Origin: Streptantibioticus ferralitis
GTDB taxonomy: Bacteria; Actinomycetota; Actinomycetes; Streptomycetales; Streptomycetaceae
DNA: 64,000 nt
NCBI RefSeq assembly: GCF_029223525.1
Contig: NZ_JARHTQ010000016.1
Coordinates: 62,001-126,000 of the forward strand
Direction of reading: 5' to 3'
Shown: positions 20,647 to 31,570 of the stretch, piece after piece
Position numbering within the stretch: the first letter of the stretch is position 1
Layout of the letters: each line of letters begins with the position of its first letter
Notes under the pieces: generated by a model
Seen by the model: the letters and a program-made list of their open reading frames with translations, nothing else
Databases searched by the model: none
What the model was told of the DNA's origin: nothing
Translations under genes and position numbers: made by a program

Positions 20647-21189
20647 TCAGCGCGGGCTGTCCGCCTCGGTGTCCTCGAAGTAGACGTCCAGGACGGCGTC
20701 GAGTTCCGTCGTCCACTGCTTGGGCAGGCTCCTGCTCGGCGCCTCGACGTCGGCCTCGTAGCTGCGGCGACCGGTGGTGTGGACCGTGACGGTGAACCGG
20801 CGCGCGAACCGGGGAGTGTCGATCTCCACCGCGCCGATCTCGTCCCAGTGGAACTCGGCCGTCTCGTCATCCAGCTGGAACGTGACGCCAGCGGGGCCGA
20901 CGACGATCGAACCACGGCGGTCGGAGACCTCGAAGACCGGTCCGTCGGCCCGCCGTTCGGCCCCCTCCTCGGTGGCAGCCTCCTCCTCGGCGGCCGCCTC
21001 TTCCTCGGGGGCGACGGCTTCCGGCGCGGGGTCTTCGGGGACGGCGTCGCCGGGCGGCTGCTCCGCCGCCGGTTCCACAGCCTTCTCTTCCGCCGCGACC
21101 GGGCGCGAGAACGTCAGGCCGGGGACGTGCGCCGGATCGGTCCCGGCGGCGTGTACGGGCGGGGTGTTCGGGCCTATGCGCTGCTCCAC
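20647..21189 (-). CDS. Hypothetical protein with acidic linker and PH-like C-terminal domain
   Basis: The C-terminal 100 residues (VFEVSDRRGSIVVGPAGVTFQL, EFHWDEIGAVEIDTPRFARRFTVTVHT, LPKQWTTELDAVLDVYFED) look like a small beta-sandwich PH-like domain known from many streptomycete hypothetical proteins. Ahead of it is a long Glu/Ala-rich acidic stretch of about 50 residues. The start is uncertain: GTG 21189 (VEQRIGPN) is used, and the frame is open to 21258. No signal peptide is seen. It lies upstream of no obvious partner, and I cannot name a function. Confidence 0.62.
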   Translation of the reverse strand: MEQRIGPNTPPVHAAGTDPAHVPGLTFSRPVAAEEKAVEPAAEQPPGDAVPEDPAPEAVAPEEEAAAEEEAATEEGAERRADGPVFEVSDRRGSIVVGPAGVTFQLDDETAEFHWDEIGAVEIDTPRFARRFTVTVHTTGRRSYEADVEAPSRSLPKQWTTELDAVLDVYFEDTEADSPR

Positions 21190-21324
21190 GGCCGGAAGTA
21201 TGGCCGATGGACCTGTGCGGGCAAAAGGCGCCTCGGCCGGAAGGCCGCCACCGTGCACGGCCGACCGGGCGCGGTGCCGGTCGCGGTGGAGGCGGCGGCC
21301 GGTACCGGCCGGACGGGCTGCCGC

Positions 21325-22323
21325 TCAGGACGCGCTGGTCGTCTGCCGGCCGGTGGCGCTGTCCGCCAGCCACTGCGACCAGGAGACGTTGAAGTCCGCG
21401 TAGCCGTTGTCCCCGGCGACATTGCCGCGCGGAGACCCGGAGATGGTGACCGGGTCGCCCGGCTCGACGTTGTTGTAGAACCACTCGGCGTCGGACAGCG
21501 ACAGGTGCACGCAGCCGTGCGAGCCGTAGCTGTGGCCCGGGTAGGGGTCGCCGGTGGAGTAGTGGACGTAGGTGCCCGACGTGGTGAGCTGGACGTCCCA
21601 GGGCAGGGTGAGGTCGTAGAAGTTGGGGTTGCCCTTGTCGCAGGTTATGCCCACGCTGCAGGAGGTCATCCGCACCTCGCGCTGCTTGTCCATCACCGCC
21701 ATGGTGCCGTCCCAGGACGGGAAGTCCGGGCTACCGGCGTCGATCGCCATGGTGCGTACCACCGAGCCGTTCCGGGTGACCTTCATGGTGTGGTCGGGCA
21801 CGGACACGGTGGTCTCGAAGTCGGACCCGATGGTGAAGCTGTGCTGGTAGCTGCGGGTGCCGTAGCGGCCGTTGCCGTCGGTCACCCCGTCCAGGTCGGC
21901 GTTGAGCGTGACCCTGGTGCCGGACGGCCAGAACTTCTCCGGCCGCCAGTCGACGCGGGTGTCGCTGAACCAGTGCCAGGCGCCGGTGACCGGTACCGAG
22001 GTGGTCACCTTCAGGTGCCGCTCGATCGCCGCCCGGGCCGAGGAGGACACCGCATGGGTGAACTCCACCGAGATCGGCATGGCCACGCCGACGGTGCTGC
22101 CGCTCTCGGGCGTGATCGTGTCCAGCAGCAGCGGCGGGCCGGACGGGCGTGTCGGCGACGGGCTCGCACTCGCGCCGGCCGTCGTGCCGGCCTTGGCACT
22201 GGCCTTCGGAGACGACTTCGCGTCGGCGGTCGAGGCGGCCGCGTGGCCGCCGCATGCGGTGGCGCTTGCCAGCACCGCACCAGCCGCCAGTGCCATACCG
22301 ATGCTGCGCTTGATCCGCCCCAC
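21325..22323 (-). CDS. L,D-transpeptidase, Ig-like plus YkuD domains (lipoprotein copy)
   Basis: The protein cross-links peptidoglycan stems (3-3 links) outside the membrane. It has a signal sequence ending in an A-T-A-C lipobox-like site, an Ala/Ser/Thr linker, and bacterial Ig-like domains (STVGVAMPISVEFTHAV to WRPEKFWPSGTRVTLNADLDG). The YkuD catalytic domain follows, with the HYSTGDPYPG region and the SHGCVHLSLSDAEW motif that carries the catalytic Cys and His. The 332-residue length fits LdtMt2-like enzymes. A tandem paralogue of equal length lies 234 bases upstream, with its own terminator between. Confidence 0.9.
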   Translation of the reverse strand: MGRIKRSIGMALAAGAVLASATACGGHAAASTADAKSSPKASAKAGTTAGASASPSPTRPSGPPLLLDTITPESGSTVGVAMPISVEFTHAVSSSARAAIERHLKVTTSVPVTGAWHWFSDTRVDWRPEKFWPSGTRVTLNADLDGVTDGNGRYGTRSYQHSFTIGSDFETTVSVPDHTMKVTRNGSVVRTMAIDAGSPDFPSWDGTMAVMDKQREVRMTSCSVGITCDKGNPNFYDLTLPWDVQLTTSGTYVHYSTGDPYPGHSYGSHGCVHLSLSDAEWFYNNVEPGDPVTISGSPRGNVAGDNGYADFNVSWSQWLADSATGRQTTSAS

Positions 22324-22557: not shown

Positions 22558-23556
22558 CTAGCTGGCGCTGGTCGTCTGCTGGCCGGTGGCGCTGCCCGCC
22601 AGCCACTGCGACCACGACAGGTCGAAGTCCGCGTAGCCGTTGTCCCCGGCGGCCTTGCCGCGCGGTGAGCCGGTGATGGTGACGGGGTCGCCCTGCTCGA
22701 CGTGGTTGTAGTACCACTGGGCGTCGGACAGCGACAGGTGGATGCAGCCGTGCGAACCGTTGCTGCTGCCCGGGTAGGGGTCGGCGGGGGAGTAGTGGAC
22801 GTAGGTGCCCGAGTTGGTCAGGTGGACGTCCCAGGGCAGGGTGAGGTCGTAGTAGTTGGGGTTGTGCGGGTCGCAGGTTATGCCGACGCTGCAGGAGGTC
22901 ATCCGCACCTCGCGCTGCTTGTCGATGACCGCCATGGTGCCGTCCCAGGAGGGGAACTTCGGGCTGCCCGCGTCCATCGGCATGGTGCGTATCACACGGC
23001 CGTTGTGGGTGATCTTCATCGTGTGGCCCGGCACGGACACGGTGGTCTCGAAGTCGGACCCGATGGTGAAGCTGTGCTGGTACCCGTGGATGCCGTAGCG
23101 GCCGTGGCCGTCGCCGACCCCGGTCAGACCGGCGTTCAGCGTGACCTTGGTGCCGGACGGCCAGAACTTCTCCGGCCGCCAGTCGACGCGGGTGTCGCTG
23201 AACCAGTGCCAGGCGCCGGTGACCGGTACGGAGGTGGTCACCTTCAGGTGCCGCTCGATTCCGGCCCGGGCCGAGTGGGCCACCGGGTCGGTGAACACGA
23301 CCGAGATCGGCATGGCCACGCCGACGGTGCTGCCGCTCCTCGGCACGATCGAGTCCAGCAGCATCGGCGGGCCGGACGGGTGGGCCGCCGACGGGCGCGC
23401 ACTCGCGCCGGTCTTCGCGGCGACCGGCGTACTGGCCTTTGGAGACGGCTTCGCGGCGGGCGTTGCCGCCACCGCGTTGCCGCCGAACACACCTACGCTG
23501 GCCATCACCGCGCCGGCCAGCAACGCGGCCCCGGTGCTGCGCTTGATCCGCCCCAC
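22558..23556 (-). CDS. L,D-transpeptidase, tandem paralogue without lipobox Cys
   Basis: The 332-residue protein is about three-quarters identical by eye to its neighbour at 21325-22323, with the same Ig-like and YkuD layout and the catalytic motif SHGCIHLSLSDAQW. The signal region reads MASVGVFGGNAVAATP: the Cys found in the neighbour (TACGG) is Phe here (VFGG). Signal peptidase I cleavage after AVA is then likely, giving a released or wall-bound enzyme instead of a lipoprotein. The two genes look like a recent duplication with altered location. Confidence 0.9.
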   Translation of the reverse strand: MGRIKRSTGAALLAGAVMASVGVFGGNAVAATPAAKPSPKASTPVAAKTGASARPSAAHPSGPPMLLDSIVPRSGSTVGVAMPISVVFTDPVAHSARAGIERHLKVTTSVPVTGAWHWFSDTRVDWRPEKFWPSGTKVTLNAGLTGVGDGHGRYGIHGYQHSFTIGSDFETTVSVPGHTMKITHNGRVIRTMPMDAGSPKFPSWDGTMAVIDKQREVRMTSCSVGITCDPHNPNYYDLTLPWDVHLTNSGTYVHYSPADPYPGSSNGSHGCIHLSLSDAQWYYNHVEQGDPVTITGSPRGKAAGDNGYADFDLSWSQWLAGSATGQQTTSAS

Positions 23557-24071: not shown

Positions 24072-26711
24072 GTGAAGGTCTTCGGTGGTGCCGCGTCCGC
24101 CGTCCGACTCGCGCCTGGCCCGGGCGCGGGCCGGAAGGGCCTCAAAACCGGCGCCCTGGGCCTGTTCTCCTCGGTTGTCATCGGCCTGGCGTCCACCGCC
24201 CCGGCGTACAGCCTCGCGGCCACCCTCGGTCTCATCGTGGCGGGGGTGGGCCTGCAGGCCCCGATCGTCACCATGCTGGCGTTCATCCCGATGCTGCTGA
24301 TCGCCTACGCCTACCGGGAGCTCAACGCGGGCAACGCCGACTGCGGCACCACCTTCACCTGGGCGACCCGTGCCTTCGGTCCGCGTGTCGGCTGGATGGG
24401 CGGCTGGGGCATCATCGTCGCCGACATCCTCGTGATGGCGAACCTCGCCGAGATCGCCGGTATCTACGGCTTCCGGCTGCTGGGCTACGACGCACTGGCG
24501 GCGAACAGGGTGTGGACCACCGTCGCGGGTGTCATCTGGATCGCCGTGACGACCGCGATCTGCTACGTCGGCATCGAGCTCTCGGCCGCTGTGCAGCGCT
24601 GGCTGCTGTGCCTTGAGGTGGGGGTGCTGATCCTGTTCGCCGTCACCGCCCTGGTCAAGGTCTACACCAGCCATCCCCCGACGGCGATGCATGTCTCCAC
24701 CTTCTGGTTCGACCCCTTCCAGGTGACCTCGGCCAGAGCGCTGACCTCGGGCATCCTCGCCGCGGTGTTCATCTACTGGGGTTGGGACACCGCCGTCACG
24801 GTCAACGAGGAGACCGCCGACAGCGCGCACATCCCGGGGCGCGCCGCGGTCATCTCCATCGTGCTGCTGCTGGTCACCTATGGGCTGGTCGCCACCTCGG
24901 CGCAGGCGTTCGCCGGAGTGGGCCGGTCGGGAATCGGGCTGGGCAACGCGAGCCACTCGGGCGATGTGTTCTCCGGACTGGGCGACGCGGTCTTCGGCAG
25001 CCACGGTCCGGGACTCTTCCTCTCCCGGATGCTGGTCCTCATGGTGCTGACGTCCGCGGTGTCCTCCACCCAGACCACCATCCTGCCGATGGCCCGCACC
25101 GTGTTCTCCATGGCCGCCCACAAGGCCGTACCGTCCCGGTTCGCCCGGGTGCACCGCAGGTTCCTCACCCCGACCTGGTCGACCGTCGGTGTGGGCCTGG
25201 CCTCCATCGGCTTCCTCGTCCTGCTGACGCTGCTCAGCCACAATGTGCTGGCCGACTCGATCGAGTCGGTCGGCCTCGCGATCGCGTTCTACTACGGCCT
25301 CACCGGCTTCGCCTGCGTCTGGTACTACCGCAGGGTGCTCACCCGCAGCGTCAGGGACTTCCTGTTCAAGGGCCTGCTGCCGGGTCTTGGCGGGCTGATG
25401 ATGCTCTTCCTCTTCTGCTACGCCGCGTTCGACGTCTACGCGGACCCCCGTTACGGCGCGACCTCCTTCGACCTGCCGCTCATCGGGCCGACGGGCGGGG
25501 TGACGGTGGTGGGGCTCGGCGCCCTGCTGCTCGGCGTCGTGCTGATGCTGGTCGTCACGCGTGAGCACAGCGCGGCCCTGAGGCTTCAGCGCAGCCTGCT
25601 GCCGCAGAGCCTGCCGCGGCAGGCCGCCGTCGAGTTGGCGAGCCGATATGTGCCCGCCGACAGCGGGACCGGGGTGGGCGGTGACTGGTTCGACGTCATC
25701 CCGCTGTCGGGCACCCGGGTCGGGCTGGTCGTCGGCGATGTGATCGGCCATGGCCTGCGGGCCGCCGCCACCATGGGACGCCTGCGTACCGGGGTACGTG
25801 TGCTCGCCCGGCTGGACCTCGCGCCGGACGAGCTGCTGTCGCGGCTGGACGACCTGGTGGGGCAGACCGCGAAGGAGCGGACGGCCGTTGACGGCGCGGG
25901 CAGCGCCCGGCCGGGGGAGGACGAGGCTCTGGGGGTGACGTGCCTTTACGCGGTGTACGACCCGGTGTCCGGACGGTGCAGCATGGCGCGGGCCGGTCAT
26001 TCGCGGCCCGCGGTGGTCACACCGCACAACGGCGCCGCCAGCTATCCCGAGCTGCCGCCCGGCCCGCCGCTGGGCGTCGGCGGCCCGCCGTACCAGAGCG
26101 CGGAACTCCAGCTTCCGCCGGGCAGCCTCATCGCCCTGTTCACCGACGGCCTCGTCCAGGCGGCCAACCACGACCTGGACGTCGGGCTCGGCCTGCTCGC
26201 CAGAGCCCTCGCCCAGCATCAGCAGCCCCTGGAAGAGCTGTGCGACCGGGCGCTCGCGACGCTGCTGCCCGGGCCGGTGGACGACGACGCGGCGCTGCTC
26301 CTCGCCCGTACGCGGCTGCTCGGCGAGGACCAGGTGGCGGTGTGGGAACTGCCCGCGGAACCGGAGATGGTCGGCCATGCCCGCACCGCGGTCGCCCGGC
26401 GACTCGCCGACTGGGGGCTGGAGGAGCTGACGTTCAACACCGAACTGATCGTCAGCGAGCTGGTCACCAACGCCATACGGCACGCCACCGGGCCGATCCA
26501 GGTCCGACTGATCCGCGACCAGACCCTCATCTGCGAGGTCTCCGACACCGGACACACCTCGCCCCATCTGCGCCACGCCGCCAACGACGACGAGGGAGGC
26601 CGCGGTCTGTTCATCATCGCCCAGATCGCTGACCAGTGGGGGACGCGCTACACGCCCACGGGCAAGACGATCTGGGGCGAGCAGGCCCTGCCGTCCGGGG
26701 AAGGCAGCTGA
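24072..26711 (+). CDS. APC amino-acid permease fused to SpoIIE phosphatase and RsbW-type ATPase
   Basis: One uninterrupted frame encodes 879 residues. Residues about 15-490 are a complete APC-superfamily permease with some 12 helices (GALGLFSSVVIGLASTAPAY, FIYWGWDTAVTVNEE, VSSTQTTILPMARTVFSM). Near residue 496 it passes directly into a PP2C/SpoIIE phosphatase (HSAALRLQRSLLPQSLP, GTGVGGDWFDVIPL, VVGDVIGHGL, VDDDAALLLART). The last 120 residues are a GHKL anti-sigma kinase domain (TELIVSELVTNAIRHATG N-box, DEGGRGLFIIAQ). Metal-binding aspartates and the ATP-lid motifs are present. In usual streptomycete relatives a PAS or GAF domain precedes SpoIIE; here a transporter replaces it. GTG 24072 is chosen, after AGG and GGAG; the frame is open upstream to 23958. 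Transport-coupled control of a partner-switching sigma pathway is my inference. Confidence 0.88.
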   Translation: MKVFGGAASAVRLAPGPGAGRKGLKTGALGLFSSVVIGLASTAPAYSLAATLGLIVAGVGLQAPIVTMLAFIPMLLIAYAYRELNAGNADCGTTFTWATRAFGPRVGWMGGWGIIVADILVMANLAEIAGIYGFRLLGYDALAANRVWTTVAGVIWIAVTTAICYVGIELSAAVQRWLLCLEVGVLILFAVTALVKVYTSHPPTAMHVSTFWFDPFQVTSARALTSGILAAVFIYWGWDTAVTVNEETADSAHIPGRAAVISIVLLLVTYGLVATSAQAFAGVGRSGIGLGNASHSGDVFSGLGDAVFGSHGPGLFLSRMLVLMVLTSAVSSTQTTILPMARTVFSMAAHKAVPSRFARVHRRFLTPTWSTVGVGLASIGFLVLLTLLSHNVLADSIESVGLAIAFYYGLTGFACVWYYRRVLTRSVRDFLFKGLLPGLGGLMMLFLFCYAAFDVYADPRYGATSFDLPLIGPTGGVTVVGLGALLLGVVLMLVVTREHSAALRLQRSLLPQSLPRQAAVELASRYVPADSGTGVGGDWFDVIPLSGTRVGLVVGDVIGHGLRAAATMGRLRTGVRVLARLDLAPDELLSRLDDLVGQTAKERTAVDGAGSARPGEDEALGVTCLYAVYDPVSGRCSMARAGHSRPAVVTPHNGAASYPELPPGPPLGVGGPPYQSAELQLPPGSLIALFTDGLVQAANHDLDVGLGLLARALAQHQQPLEELCDRALATLLPGPVDDDAALLLARTRLLGEDQVAVWELPAEPEMVGHARTAVARRLADWGLEELTFNTELIVSELVTNAIRHATGPIQVRLIRDQTLICEVSDTGHTSPHLRHAANDDEGGRGLFIIAQIADQWGTRYTPTGKTIWGEQALPSGEGS

Positions 26712-26740: not shown

Positions 26741-28567
26741 TCAGGTTCCCGGTGGCGGCGATGGCCGCTCGGCGTCGCGGATGGCGCGGGCGGCGTTGAT
26801 CAGTCCGATGTGGCTGAAGGCCTGGGGGAAGTTCCCGAGGGCCTCCCCGGTGGCGATGTCGGTCTCCTCGGCCAGCAGGCCGACATCGTTGGCCTGGGCG
26901 ACGGCGGCCTGGAACACCTGCCGGGCGCGCGCGGCATGACCGGTCAGCGCGAGGGCGTGGGCCAGCCAGAAGGTGCACAGCAGGAAGGCTCCCTCGCCCT
27001 CGCCGATCTCGTCGCCGAGATAACGGCGCACCAGGCCGCCCGGCTCGGTGAGGTGGGTGGCGACCGCCTGCACCGTGGACTGGACCCGGGGGTCCTCCGG
27101 CGGCAGGAAGCCGACGATGGGCAGCATCAGTGACGAGGCGTCCAGGTCGTCGCTGTCGAACGCCTGGGTGAAGGCGCCCAGGCGGGGGTTCCAGCCCCGG
27201 CGCTCGACGGCGTGCCGGATCTGGTCGCGCTCGTGCTGCCAGCGGGCTACGTGTTCGTCGGCCTGCAGGGAGGCGGCCAGGGCGATGGCGCGGTCGAGGG
27301 CGACCCAGCACATCAGCTTCGAGTGCAGGAAGTGCCGGCTCGCCCCGCGCCTCTCCCAGATGCCCTGGTCGGGCTCGCTCCAGCGGCGGGCGGCGGTCTC
27401 GGCCGCCTGGCGGAGGAAGGCGCGGGTGGGCGGGTCGAGGTGCTCACCGGGCGGGAGGGTCTGGTGGGCGGCGTCGAGCAGCTCGCCGTAGACGTCGAGT
27501 TGGCGTTGGCGCCAGGCGTCGTTGCCGGTGCGCACCGGGATGCTGCCGCGCCAGCCGGTCAGATGGGGCAGCAGCCGTTCGCTCAGATCGCGTTCGCCGC
27601 CGATGCCGTACATGATCTGCAGGTCCACGCCCCGGTGCAGCTGGCTCGCCGCGGCTCTGGTGAGGAAGCCGAAGAACCTGTCCTGCTCCTTCTCACAGGC
27701 GGCGGTGGCCAGCGCCTGCAGGGTGAAGCTGGCGTCCCGGATCCAGGTGTAGCGGTAGTCCCAGTTGCGTGTGCCGCCCGGGCGCTCGGGCAGGGAGGTG
27801 GTGGCCGCGGCGATGACCGCCCCCGTGGGCGCGAAGGTCAGCGCGCGCAGCACCCGTCCGCTGTGGCTCACCTCGTCCTGCCAGGGGCCGACGTAGCCGC
27901 TGTGCAGCCGGGACCACGAGCGCCAGCCCTCGGCGGTGTCCGCGAGGCGTCGGCGGATGCGCCGTGGACCCCAGGGCGCCGGCCGGCTTCCCCAGGCCGG
28001 GCCGATGTGCAGGGCGAAGCCGAGGCGCTCCGGGGCCCGTAGCGTGAGCTGGGCGTGCGCGGTGGAACCGCGCACCGTCAAGGAAGCGGGGCTCGACAGC
28101 AGCAGGGTGTAGGCGCCGCCACAGGCGGTGAGCCCGCCGTGGACGGACGACAGGAGCGGGTGGACGAGTCCGAACTCCGGGCGCGGCGCGTAGTCGATCT
28201 CGACCGGCACCTGCCCTTCGGTACAGGTGATCTGCCGCAGCAGGACTCCGGGGGAAGCGGCGCCGAGTGCGTGACCGCGTTCCCGGCGGCCCAGGGCGAG
28301 CGCGTCGCGCAGGACCGCTGTTCCACCGGGTGTGCGGAAGGTCGTCTCCAGCACCAGGGTTCGCTCGACGTACCGGCGGCTGACCTCGGCCGGGCCGACG
28401 GGGCGGATGGACCAGTGCCCGGCGTCCTCGTCGAGCAGCCGGGCGAAGACCGCCGGGCTGTCGAAGCGGGGAAGGCACAGCCAGTCCACCGAACCGTCGG
28501 AGGTGACCAGGGCGGCCGAGCGGCAGTCGGACAGCAGGGCGTGGTCACTGATGGGTCGTGAGCTCAC
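26741..28567 (-). CDS. GH15-family glycoside hydrolase (glucoamylase/trehalase-like)
   Basis: The 608-residue cytoplasmic enzyme has an N-terminal beta-sandwich starting ISDHALLSDCRSAALVTSDGSVDWLCLPRFDSPAVFARLLD, the usual start of GH15 proteins of actinobacteria. The (alpha/alpha)6 barrel carries NWDYRYTWIRDASFTL and ends with EETDIATGEALGNFPQAFSHIGLI, which contains the second catalytic Glu region. Actinobacterial members include trehalases as well as glucoamylases, so the substrate (alpha-glucan or trehalose) is open. The GTG start overlaps the methyltransferase stop by 4 bases; it is the last gene of a four-gene operon. Confidence 0.87.
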   Translation of the reverse strand: MSSRPISDHALLSDCRSAALVTSDGSVDWLCLPRFDSPAVFARLLDEDAGHWSIRPVGPAEVSRRYVERTLVLETTFRTPGGTAVLRDALALGRRERGHALGAASPGVLLRQITCTEGQVPVEIDYAPRPEFGLVHPLLSSVHGGLTACGGAYTLLLSSPASLTVRGSTAHAQLTLRAPERLGFALHIGPAWGSRPAPWGPRRIRRRLADTAEGWRSWSRLHSGYVGPWQDEVSHSGRVLRALTFAPTGAVIAAATTSLPERPGGTRNWDYRYTWIRDASFTLQALATAACEKEQDRFFGFLTRAAASQLHRGVDLQIMYGIGGERDLSERLLPHLTGWRGSIPVRTGNDAWRQRQLDVYGELLDAAHQTLPPGEHLDPPTRAFLRQAAETAARRWSEPDQGIWERRGASRHFLHSKLMCWVALDRAIALAASLQADEHVARWQHERDQIRHAVERRGWNPRLGAFTQAFDSDDLDASSLMLPIVGFLPPEDPRVQSTVQAVATHLTEPGGLVRRYLGDEIGEGEGAFLLCTFWLAHALALTGHAARARQVFQAAVAQANDVGLLAEETDIATGEALGNFPQAFSHIGLINAARAIRDAERPSPPPGT

Positions 28568-29265
28568 CGGCCGCACACCCGGCGTTCCAGGGACGAGTTC
28601 CGCCGGCCGAGGGCGAGGAACCGCCGATGCCCGCTGTCCCACTGGTCGGTGACGCGCAGGCCGAGGCCCTCGGCGACCCTGCGGGCGGCCGGTGCCCCCA
28701 ACCGTGCCCAGGGAAACGGCGGGCCGCGGTGGCCGTGGGCGTCCTCCACCCAAGCGGTGCAGCGCTCCTCCACATCCTGCTGGTCGACCTCGACGAGCAG
28801 GGCTCCCGTCGGATCGGCGAGCTCGGCGCAGCGGCGCAGCAGGGCGTGCGGGTCACCGCCGATACCGATGTTCCCGTCGGCGAGCAGCAGGGTCTGCCAG
28901 CCGCCCTCGGTCGGCAGCGGGTCGAAAACCGACCGGCACAGTGCGGCCCCGCCGAGGGCGACGGTCCGGGCGACCGCGCGCGGAGCGACATCGACACCGA
29001 GGGCGAAGACGCCGCGGCTCATCAGCGCCGTGCACAGTCGGCCGGGTCCGCAACCCACGTCCAGCACCCGGCTGTTGCAGCGCTCCAGCAAGGTCTCGTC
29101 GGCCCTGCTGGGCCGGGAGCACCAGCGGTGCACCGGCAGCCGGATCCGGCGCCCGTCCGCCCACCGCAGGTACAGCGGCAGGTACAGCGGTCCGCGGCCG
29201 TTCTGCAGGGCCAGTGCGTAGGGGTCCTCGCCCGCGCGGGGCGAGCGCGTTTCCTCGGGCATCAC
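28564..29265 (-). CDS. Class I SAM-dependent methyltransferase
   Basis: The 233-residue protein contains motif I, VLDVGCGPGRLCTALMSRG, near residue 70, followed by the acidic motif LGVDVAP and the motif-IV region LLLADGNIG. The GTG start overlaps the preceding membrane-protein stop (GTGA). It has no signal peptide. Its operon contains a molybdopterin oxidoreductase and a small membrane protein, an arrangement seen in other streptomycetes. The methyl acceptor is unknown. Confidence 0.82.
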   Translation of the reverse strand: MMPEETRSPRAGEDPYALALQNGRGPLYLPLYLRWADGRRIRLPVHRWCSRPSRADETLLERCNSRVLDVGCGPGRLCTALMSRGVFALGVDVAPRAVARTVALGGAALCRSVFDPLPTEGGWQTLLLADGNIGIGGDPHALLRRCAELADPTGALLVEVDQQDVEERCTAWVEDAHGHRGPPFPWARLGAPAARRVAEGLGLRVTDQWDSGHRRFLALGRRNSSLERRVCGR

Positions 29266-29767: not shown

Positions 29768-31222
29768 TCAGGTCCTGAAGGTGAGTCGGTGCACCCACTT
29801 GGTGTTGTTCACACCGGGGTTGGCAGGAACGATGACCCGGGCCGGGAAGCCGTGGTCGAGCGACAGGTCCGCCCCGTTGACGCGCAGCGCCAGCAGCGAC
29901 CTGGGGTCGTGGATCTGGTTGCCGCGCAGCACCACCGAGCTGTAGGGGCCGGGCGGTTGGACCGATTCCACCAGGACGCTTCCGGCACCGGGCAGTCCGG
30001 CCATGGCGGCGAGGTCGGTGAGCCGCAGGCCGCTCCAGAGCTGGTCCGGGGTGGACCAGCCCTCCACACAGGCGATCGGCAGCGCGGCGGCGTGCTGGCG
30101 CAGCGCGAGGAGCTGTGCGCGGGTGAAGACCAGGGCGGGGGAGCGGCCGCGCACCTCCAGCCGCCAGCTCGGGCCGACATGCGCCGGGGAGACACCGACG
30201 GCCGCGGCCGTCTTGTTGATCTGAAAGCCGTTCGGTCCGCTGCCCGGGTCGCGGTTGTGCGGGGCGAGCAGCGCGGTGCCGCGCAGTAGCCCGCCGACGC
30301 TCTGACCCGCGGTGACCACCAGCAGGGTCAGTGATCCCGCGCCCACCAGGCCCAGGGCGCCGCGCCGGGTCATCGTCGGCGCCGCCGGTGCGGTCGGCAC
30401 CAGGCCGTGCGGGTCGGGGGGCTCGGGGACGGTGTGCGCGAGGTCGGTGCGCAGTTCCGTGGCCAGGTCGCGGCTGCCCAGCGCGCGGGTCATCCGGCCG
30501 AGCTTGAGGCACACATGGACGATGAACGCGGCGATGAACACCCAGGCGCCGTAGAAGTGCAGGGTGTAGAAGGAGCCCGGGAAGACGTAGTACAGCTGGA
30601 TGTTGAGGATCCCGGTCACGAACTCGAAGATGACCCCGCCCACCAGCAGCAGCAGTGACAGCCGTTCGAGTCCGTGGGCGACCGACCGCACCGGCAGCCA
30701 CTCGAACAGCTTCGGGATGACCGCCCACAGCTTGGCCAGCAGCACCGGGACGAGGACCACGCCGAGCGTCACGTGTACGCCCTGGGTCAGCCGGTACAGC
30801 CAGTAGGGCTGTGTGGGCCAGTCGAACAGGTAGAAGCCCAGCAGGCCCTTGTCGGGGGTCTGGTCGTTGAGCGGGCCCAGATCGGGGTTGTACGCGGCGT
30901 AGGAGAGCGCGCCGGTGACGAAGAGCACCGGAATGCCGACCAGCAGCACCAGGCCGAACACCGACGTCAGCCACGGCCCGCGGATCGGACTACGCCAGAA
31001 CCCGGGCCGGAAGGGCCCCGGCGGCGGAGGTGTCCGGCCGACCCGCCGCGCGATCGCCTGGGCCCGGGCCGCCGCCGCGTCGCCTGCGGACGCGATGGCG
31101 TGGATCGCGGCGGCCGACGCGGCGCCGAGCCGCGGCAAGCGCCGCCGTGCGGGCTCCTGGTCCCGCTTCGGGCCCTGCGGTCCCCCGGAAGAACCGGACG
31201 CCGACCGCCCGCCACTGCCCAT
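29768..31222 (-). CDS. Cytochrome b561-like domain fused to sulfite-oxidase-type molybdopterin domain
   Basis: The 484-residue product begins with about 80 Pro/Arg-rich residues, then roughly five membrane helices with conserved histidines (LYRLTQGVHVTLGVVLVPVLLAKL, SFYTLHFYGAWVFIAAFIVHVCLKL). A Tat-like TRRGALGLVGAG segment comes next, followed by an external molybdopterin domain. The domain contains IACVEGWS, whose Cys near residue 385 is the expected Mo ligand, and HGFPARVIVPANPGVNNTKWV. Electrons from an oxidised substrate outside should pass to the membrane heme, or the reverse. ATG 31222 is chosen although the frame continues upstream. It heads the operon that runs to 26741. Confidence 0.85.
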   Translation of the reverse strand: MGSGGRSASGSSGGPQGPKRDQEPARRRLPRLGAASAAAIHAIASAGDAAAARAQAIARRVGRTPPPPGPFRPGFWRSPIRGPWLTSVFGLVLLVGIPVLFVTGALSYAAYNPDLGPLNDQTPDKGLLGFYLFDWPTQPYWLYRLTQGVHVTLGVVLVPVLLAKLWAVIPKLFEWLPVRSVAHGLERLSLLLLVGGVIFEFVTGILNIQLYYVFPGSFYTLHFYGAWVFIAAFIVHVCLKLGRMTRALGSRDLATELRTDLAHTVPEPPDPHGLVPTAPAAPTMTRRGALGLVGAGSLTLLVVTAGQSVGGLLRGTALLAPHNRDPGSGPNGFQINKTAAAVGVSPAHVGPSWRLEVRGRSPALVFTRAQLLALRQHAAALPIACVEGWSTPDQLWSGLRLTDLAAMAGLPGAGSVLVESVQPPGPYSSVVLRGNQIHDPRSLLALRVNGADLSLDHGFPARVIVPANPGVNNTKWVHRLTFRT

Positions 31223-31570
31223 CAACCGTCTCCTCCATCTCAGCGCCACATCCTCGATGGGGAGCGGTCGGCCGCGATCACGCCGCGGTACGCGCGGCCG
31301 GTCGAAATCCCGCCAGGACTCACCACCACCGTCGATTACATGTGTGGACCGGGGGTCCCGCACACGGTGATCCCCCATGTCGCGCCTTCCGTCAGCCGAA
31401 CGGCCGAACCCGACGCCCGGATGTGCCGCGGCTCGCGGTCTGCCGACGCCCCTGCCGATGGCAGCCGGCGGTGGCCGTCGGCGTTGGACACCGACGGCCA
31501 CCGTGGGGTGCGCGGGCGCCGGCTCCGTCACGAGCGGCGGCGGGCGCGACGTCCGTGCGGCAGCCGGCTG
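31223..31570. other. Gap between esterase and molybdoenzyme operon
   Basis: About 350 bases with no convincing gene on either strand. It must contain the promoter of the molybdoenzyme operon. A hairpin with 12-bp perfect arms lies at 31470-31502. Confidence 0.5.
31470..31502 (-). terminator. Hairpin downstream of the esterase gene
   Basis: Arms GGTGGCCGTCGG (31470-31481) and CCGACGGCCACC (31491-31502) pair perfectly around a 9-base loop. It lies about 70 bases after the esterase stop on the minus strand and ahead of the molybdoenzyme operon. Confidence 0.6.

Follow-up and report, generated by a model that had tools for sequence, protein, structure and literature searches.

A single polypeptide joining an APC-type permease to SpoIIE-type phosphatase and RsbW-like kinase domains in Streptantibioticus ferralitis and its relatives

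A gene in DNA of Streptantibioticus ferralitis (contig NZ_JARHTQ010000016.1, positions 62,001 to 126,000; the whole stretch of 64,000 nucleotides is called the window below) raises the question of whether an amino-acid permease, a SpoIIE-type phosphatase and an RsbW-type kinase can form one protein, and what such a protein might do. An earlier note had read the frame as continuing without a stop from the permease through the phosphatase into the kinase, and this was borne out by translation of the window and by Pfam. The frame is open on the + strand over 24072-26708 (879 codons), with a stop codon at 26709-26711, and includes the following features, all on the + strand.

24072..26711: whole gene, a permease-SpoIIE/PP2C-GHKL fusion of 879 amino acids plus stop (open frame, Pfam, same fusion in 54 distinct complete named open reading frames)
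24147..25556: APC-type permease, residues ~26-495, with 12 predicted membrane helices (Pfam PF00324, fold neighbours, comparison with stand-alone permeases)
25497..25598: predicted continuous helix from transmembrane helix 12 (TM12) into the N-terminal phosphatase helix, residues 476-509 (two AlphaFold2 models)
25629..26312: SpoIIE/PP2C phosphatase domain, residues ~520-747 (Pfam, motifs)
25737-25739, 26145-26147 and 26286-26288: aspartates of the metal-ligand type, Asp556, Asp692 and Asp739, all present in the window copy
26349..26675: RsbW-like GHKL ATPase/anti-sigma kinase domain, residues 760-868 (Pfam HATPase_c_2)
26457-26459 and 26469-26471: N-box residues E796 and N800

Domains of the chain

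Pfam assigned residues 35-433 to AA_permease (PF00324; 4e-19, 69.1 bits against a cut-off of 24.6), residues 547-747 to SpoIIE (5e-50, 170.6 bits against 25) and residues 760-868 to HATPase_c_2 (2.5e-16, 60.3 bits against 27.4). PF13520, the family named in the earlier note, is absent from the Pfam matches listed for the fusion; it is the top match (6e-30) of a stand-alone permease of the same genome that is 74% identical to fusion residues 14-495. The description of a full 12-helix permease held, since 12 membrane-type helices, with TM1 broken, were counted in the helix list of an AlphaFold2 model. The nearest folds found by Foldseek were ApcT (1.3e-10), BasC (1.4e-8) and LAT-type transporters, and a search of a viral structure library returned generic transporters and PP2C proteins only. 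By its Pfam domain and its predicted LeuT-type, ApcT-like fold of 12 helices, this half is classed as an APC-type permease. The nearest solved structure for the C-terminal half is the RsbU-RsbW part of Rv1364c (PDB 3ke6; 2.7e-18 by sequence, 2.4e-15 by fold). Neither a STAS domain nor a recognised sensor other than the permease was found in the chain by Pfam. Thus, positions 24072-26711 are confirmed at the level of sequence to encode a single chain of predicted APC-type permease, SpoIIE/PP2C and RsbW-like GHKL ATPase domains. The frame could also open at GTG 23958 to give 917 amino acids, and the start codon is not proven; the sequence around GTG 24072 is common to several of 12 relatives compared.

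Occurrence and origin of the fusion

The earlier note had named a stop codon or frameshift at the junction in the true genome as the finding that would undo it. The fusion is unbroken in 3/3 genomes of the genus. Among 394 genomes of the family searched with a 561-residue query spanning the junction, 29, the window's own included, carry a match that crosses the junction and reaches the end of the query; one of the 29 is interrupted by a contig end. A scan of named loci in a wider collection covered the best 80 of 487 relatives, so that a species missing from them may still carry the fusion, and gave 54 distinct complete fusions, one cut by a contig end, and 25 distinct stand-alone permeases. 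The output module is complete in all 54 complete fusions, and the frame is intact in each of the 55 that were aligned. Because the fusion is unbroken across genus, family and named open reading frames, a frameshift or false assembly join near 25560 is excluded. An oddity of one strain is likewise ruled out by the spread of fusions over the family sample and the named loci.

No additional fusion was detected among 11 weaker family matches, comprising 10 further loci (nine reaching past residue 500 or lying in long frames, and one further long frame) and L173. All are stand-alone permeases, which end 22-64 residues beyond residue 493/494 (or 40 beyond 484). Among the matches listed for 394 genomes of the class, none from outside the family extended past residue 522 of 561, although distant fusions could be missed in this way, and eight of the long open frames from outside the family extend just 11-57 residues beyond the match.

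A permease tree of 99 rows (55 fusions, 38 stand-alone permeases and 6 outgroup sequences) placed the fusions in one clade nested in the stand-alone permeases, with a Shimodaira-Hasegawa-like approximate likelihood ratio (SH-aLRT) of 100. In an output-module tree of 89 rows (55 fusions and 34 paralogs) they occupied one side of a branch, also with SH-aLRT 100. Both are quick trees made without bootstrap and gave long-branch warnings among outgroups and paralogs. Since the fusions form one clade on both, the family is traced by these trees to one ancestral fusion event.

Two fusions (L073 and L075) are carried by S. glomeratus. On the permease tree the fusions of Saccharothrix sp. ST-888 (L059) and Streptosporangium nondiastaticum (L077) nest within Streptomyces/Kitasatospora clades; these two genomes are probably misnamed, or the gene has moved.

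The place that the permease occupies was compared with the same place in paralogs of the same genome. The phosphatase part matches 33 further places, of which 24 were fetched and 20 run through Pfam, with sensors called at E <= 0.001. PAS, GAF, sCache, CHASE3 or HAMP domains were present in 19 of the 20, including one (L148) with just a GAF below the Pfam curated cut-off; L150 has no recognised sensor. None of the 20 contains a transporter domain, and the claim that a transporter occupies the place of the sensor is upheld. SpoIIE and HATPase_c_2 occur together in 14/20. Hence, of the proposal that opposing phosphatase and kinase domains make the chain a self-contained switch, the presence of both domains stood, while the arrangement is not special, being shared with these 14 paralogs and with Rv1364c.

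In S. glomeratus and Streptomyces sp. RB17, the gene immediately upstream of the fusion is a separate SpoIIE-ATPase paralog (~57% identical), which at L121 carries Asn in place of Asp692. In some relatives, a stand-alone permease has, at a distance of a few kilobases, a separate SpoIIE gene that belongs to another subfamily (~34-37% identical). This neighbourhood is possibly a hint of an older link between both functions.

L075:8001-9137 and L121:7998-9128, same strand as the fusion: SpoIIE-ATPase paralogs upstream of it
L123:10674-11477, L126:10693-11301, L204, L210 and L211: stand-alone permease near a SpoIIE gene

Proposed signal route and its alternatives

The reading preferred here, which we consider slightly more probable than not, is that of a single-chain APC transceptor, a protein that binds or carries a nutrient and also signals that it is there, which would act on partner switching and have the kinase as its constant output. 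In the ancestral event, a streptomycete regulator of the SpoIIE-RsbW type would have exchanged its GAF/PAS sensor for an APC amino-acid permease. TM12 would shift when the substrate binds or is transported, and, since an unbroken helix is predicted from TM12 into the PP2C domain, this shift would change how the cytoplasmic module is posed or dimerises. The module would then alter the phosphorylation of at least one STAS anti-anti-sigma protein encoded elsewhere and, through it, the activity of a SigB-like sigma factor. The GHKL kinase would be the constant output and the phosphatase a second activity, which may oppose the kinase in the window copy. The ligand, the TM12 coupling, the enzyme activities, the STAS target and the sigma factor are all what we infer.

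The homology junction lies at about residue 495 (codon 496 begins at 25557): stand-alone permeases match the fusion up to ~494 and the best paralogs match it from 495. A single helix was predicted for residues 476-509 when the whole protein was modelled with AlphaFold2 (mean predicted local distance difference test (pLDDT) 74, predicted template modelling score (pTM) 0.55) and for residues 476-508 in a second model, which covers 366-750 (pLDDT 79, pTM 0.58). The segment 476-545 is exactly 70 residues long in all 55 aligned fusions, as compared with 14 different lengths of the loop 600-640. Papers are cited here by PubMed Central (PMC) numbers. It has been proposed that a PPM phosphatase which dimerises receives signals through helical linkers from sensors that can be exchanged (PMC12143880); the fusion fits this proposal, with a transporter as the sensor. 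Such a case is absent from the main text of the paper, in which the words transporter, permease and transmembrane do not occur.

At the end of TM12, position 493 (window 25548-25550) is Pro in 30/55 fusions and Leu in 32/38 stand-alone permeases, and position 498 (window 25563-25565) is Gly in 28/55 fusions. A hinge formed by Pro493 and Gly498 is possible; their distribution follows clades. Both are present in 16 of the 20 copies that lack Asp692, which also follows clades, and no claim is made from it.

The same region bears on whether two proteins are made from one frame, with an internal start near residue 490, as the earlier note had cautioned, giving a free phosphatase-kinase. Codon 492 is indeed ATG in 49/55 fusions, but none of the 49 has a Shine-Dalgarno-like sequence before it. 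Position 492 is Met in 37/38 stand-alone permeases too; hence Met492 is, by this comparison, a TM12 residue, and a product started there would keep part of TM12. At the other in-frame start-like codons by the junction, Shine-Dalgarno-like sequences are rare (at most 4/28, at codon 480). Because streptomycete starts that lack such a sequence exist, an internal start is regarded as unlikely rather than excluded, and of the explanations considered here the production of two proteins is the least credible.

The part kept by every aligned copy is the kinase domain. Its residues E796, N800, D825, G827, G843 and G845 are invariant in 55/55 fusions, and the N and G boxes that mark an RsbW/SpoIIAB-type kinase are present in this HATPase_c_2-type GHKL domain. 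The best reading of these data is that the kinase would be the constant output. The flow of information might also be reversed, so that the kinase/phosphatase module gates the transporter through phosphorylation, nucleotide state or partner binding. Fungal APC-type transporters are controlled by C-terminal regions, and the permease has the appearance of a working transporter by its sequence. However, the module is the standard output module found behind sensors in 14 of the 20 scanned paralogs, and the kinase residues are kept; we therefore judge reversed flow improbable.

The phosphatase domain is less uniform. The window copy keeps Asp538, Asp541, Asp556, Asp692 and Asp739 and every catalytic residue checked. 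The metal ligands of SpoIIE are D628, D746 and D795 (PMC5468089), to which, as we infer by motif, Asp556, Asp692 and Asp739 correspond; the same phosphatase motifs appear in alignments with related chains, some with weak E-values. None of the 55 aligned fusions departs from Asp at positions 538, 541 and 739. Asp556 is replaced in 10/55 (Glu in 7, Asn in 3) and Asp692 in 20/55 (Gly in 11, Ala in 5, Glu in 2, Leu and Arg in 1 each), so that one or the other, never both, is changed in 30/55. The fewest state changes on the permease tree were 9 for Asp692, 4 for Asp556 and 12 for either. As a control, paralogs were inspected, and both aspartates were present in 50/51: 24/24 from this genome (24 of its 33 paralogs), 11/11 from sister genomes and 15/16 from flanks of named loci. 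Exceptions at other positions were Gly for Asp538 in one paralog (L026), Glu/Ser at 541 in two, and Ala, Ile or a gap at 739 in four, mostly close to alignment ends. Thus, the window copy has the features of a SpoIIE/RsbU-type PP2C, namely the domain and the aspartates, and phosphatase activity is probably present in it; 30/55 relatives lack the aspartate feature, and the phosphatase is probably impaired in many of them, although Glu in place of Asp may leave some activity. The idea of an opposing phosphatase and kinase is thus only partly supported, since the phosphatase half is not conserved throughout the family.

These replacements could mean that the output module is being lost and the protein is becoming mainly a permease. 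Such decay is favoured by the permease tree, which requires at least 12 state changes, and by a phosphatase dN/dS (ratio of nonsynonymous to synonymous substitution rates) that is the highest of the three domains in 4/7 groups. The dN/dS values are crude estimates by the method of Nei and Gojobori (NG86) for seven groups of 2-6 relatives; the permease ranges over 0.24-0.46, the phosphatase over 0.14-0.46 and the ATPase over 0.11-0.35, and each domain stays below 0.5 in each group. On the other hand, ATPase dN/dS is lowest in 4/7 groups, the GHKL residues are invariant and the module is complete, as described above, and copies that lack Asp692 vary no more than the remaining copies over the rest of the module, with the reservation that clade sampling differs. 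Decay of the fusion is accordingly rated as very improbable.

A more far-reaching version of the preferred reading is that the permease directly gates the anti-sigma kinase via the TM12-phosphatase helix, that the PP2C domain is turning repeatedly and independently into a non-catalytic transmission piece, and that amino-acid supply sets sigma activity through the kinase alone in many streptomycetes. This version is put forward as tentative and is less probable than the transceptor reading itself. As close relatives include copies that have the metal ligands and copies that lack them, the phosphatase and kinase roles are testable with natural variants, and the family would represent a natural experiment on the conversion of a PPM phosphatase to a pseudoenzyme.

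The permease half differs little from its stand-alone relatives. Consistent differences between the fusions and 38 stand-alone permeases, i.e. a majority of over 85% and over 80% in the two groups compared, were found at just four positions (82, 89, 444 and 447). None of them lies in the TM1 core (38-51) or the TM6 core (233-248), both of which are like those of the stand-alone permeases. The permease might transport and merely tether the output module to the membrane, any signal being read in the cytoplasm. The similarity of the core to stand-alone transporters is in line with this, as is CbrA, a histidine kinase with an SLC5 transporter part, whose kinase domain is reported to be dispensable for uptake and whose SLC5 domain is reported to be dispensable for signal perception (PMC9100948). 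Yet the permease is the only sensor candidate recognised in the chain, the join falls exactly where the paralogs have their sensor, and all 55 aligned fusions share one junction length. A mere anchor is thus considered unlikely, albeit less so than reversed flow.

Several observations weigh against the transceptor reading. The confidence of both models is low at the junction (block means of 55-62 in the whole-protein model and 49-56 in that of residues 366-750), and length is equally constant in segments 26-100, 300-400, 546-600 and 750-770, so that its constancy is not specific to the junction. The aspartate changes in 30/55 fusions and the reported dispensability of the CbrA transporter part, both given above, count in the same direction. 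Asp118 in TM3 (window 24423-24425) is kept in 38/38 stand-alone permeases and is Asn in 23/55 fusions; hence some members of the family may differ in transport. The GHKL domain scores below the NCBIfam cut-offs for RsbW (11.1 of 155 bits), SpoIIAB (16.1 of 135) and RsbA (58.4 of 210), and is therefore described as RsbW-like and not filed as RsbW. No operon partner was found in rough gene calls on the 8 kb flanks of the fusion loci, some of which are short, the best neighbour gene family occurring in 9/54 loci. Finally, both Pfam STAS models found seven STAS loci in the genome, which are possible targets, and none of the seven is on the contig of the window. As there is neither a recurrent neighbour nor a STAS locus on the contig, the STAS target is probably encoded elsewhere in the genome.

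Asp692 is absent in 14 of the 23 Asn118 copies as compared with 6 of the 32 Asp118 copies; there are two independent pairs on starred branches, and no claim is made from this. The genes neighbouring the fusion in the window and in the other fusion loci gave no informative clue to the substrate. In the window they are as follows, all on the - strand.

20647-21258: frame of 203 amino acids, no Pfam match
21325-22323 and 22558-23556: two tandem L,D-transpeptidases (Big_10 plus YkuD), 332 amino acids each, upstream of and divergent from the fusion
26741-28753: GH15/trehalase-like protein, convergent, with the fusion stop 30 bases away
29768-31531: molybdopterin oxidoreductase domain after a weak cytochrome b561-like membrane part (below the Pfam cut-off)

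An L,D-transpeptidase-like protein is near the fusion in 2/54 fusion loci.

Comparison with known systems

Partner switching is a main Gram-positive control route for stress and sporulation sigma factors. If the preferred reading is true, a transporter would feed directly into this route, and in streptomycetes a single protein would connect the supply of amino acids with sigma activity. The earlier note knew of no described system of this form. This was narrowed: the kind is known, as CbrA, Ks-Amt5 and Ssy1 show, and the pairing of an APC permease with SpoIIE was the part for which no paper was found among the open-licence PMC articles listed, judged by title and the opening of the abstract. 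This speaks only weakly for a true absence, and the architecture may already be recorded in domain databases.

Chains that combine PP2C and RsbW parts have already been described, e.g. Rv1364c (PMC12143880). In Rv1364c and in GAF/PAS-SpoIIE regulators such as S. coelicolor OsaC, the order and fold of the PP2C and GHKL domains are as in the fusion. Their sensors are soluble PAS or GAF domains, Rv1364c also having STAS (PMC12143880), whereas the fusion has an N-terminal permease of 12 helices.

Yeast Ssy1 is an amino-acid receptor derived from amino-acid transporters for which a signalling hinge in TM12 has been proposed (PMC12958826), and in these respects it resembles the fusion. Unlike the fusion, Ssy1 is eukaryotic and signals via the separate Ptr3 and Ssy5, with no fused enzyme.

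The membrane part of Bacillus subtilis SpoIIE is, to our knowledge, not known as a transporter, and the protein has no GHKL domain that we know of. Like the fusion, it places a partner-switching PP2C behind membrane segments (10 in SpoIIE), but it has a regulatory domain between the membrane part and the phosphatase (PMC5468089).

Ks-Amt5 is a further case of an uptake transporter reused as a sensor, with a direct join to the kinase that lacks HAMP, as in the fusion (PMC5764959). It consists of an Amt channel and a histidine kinase and is reported to bind, not translocate, ammonium (PMC5764959), whereas the fusion has an APC permease, which may transport.

Another parallel in kind is CbrA, the best-known of the SLC5/STAC histidine kinases (see also PMC8871633 and PMC6591292), which has a transporter and a signalling output in one chain and has been called a transceptor (PMC13022988, PMC9100948). 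CbrA combines an SLC5 transporter, STAC and a histidine kinase working with a response regulator, while the fusion combines an APC permease with PP2C-GHKL and has no recognised STAC; none of the SLC5, STAC or histidine kinase domains is among its Pfam matches. Judged by its domains, the architecture of the fusion fits the definition of a transceptor.

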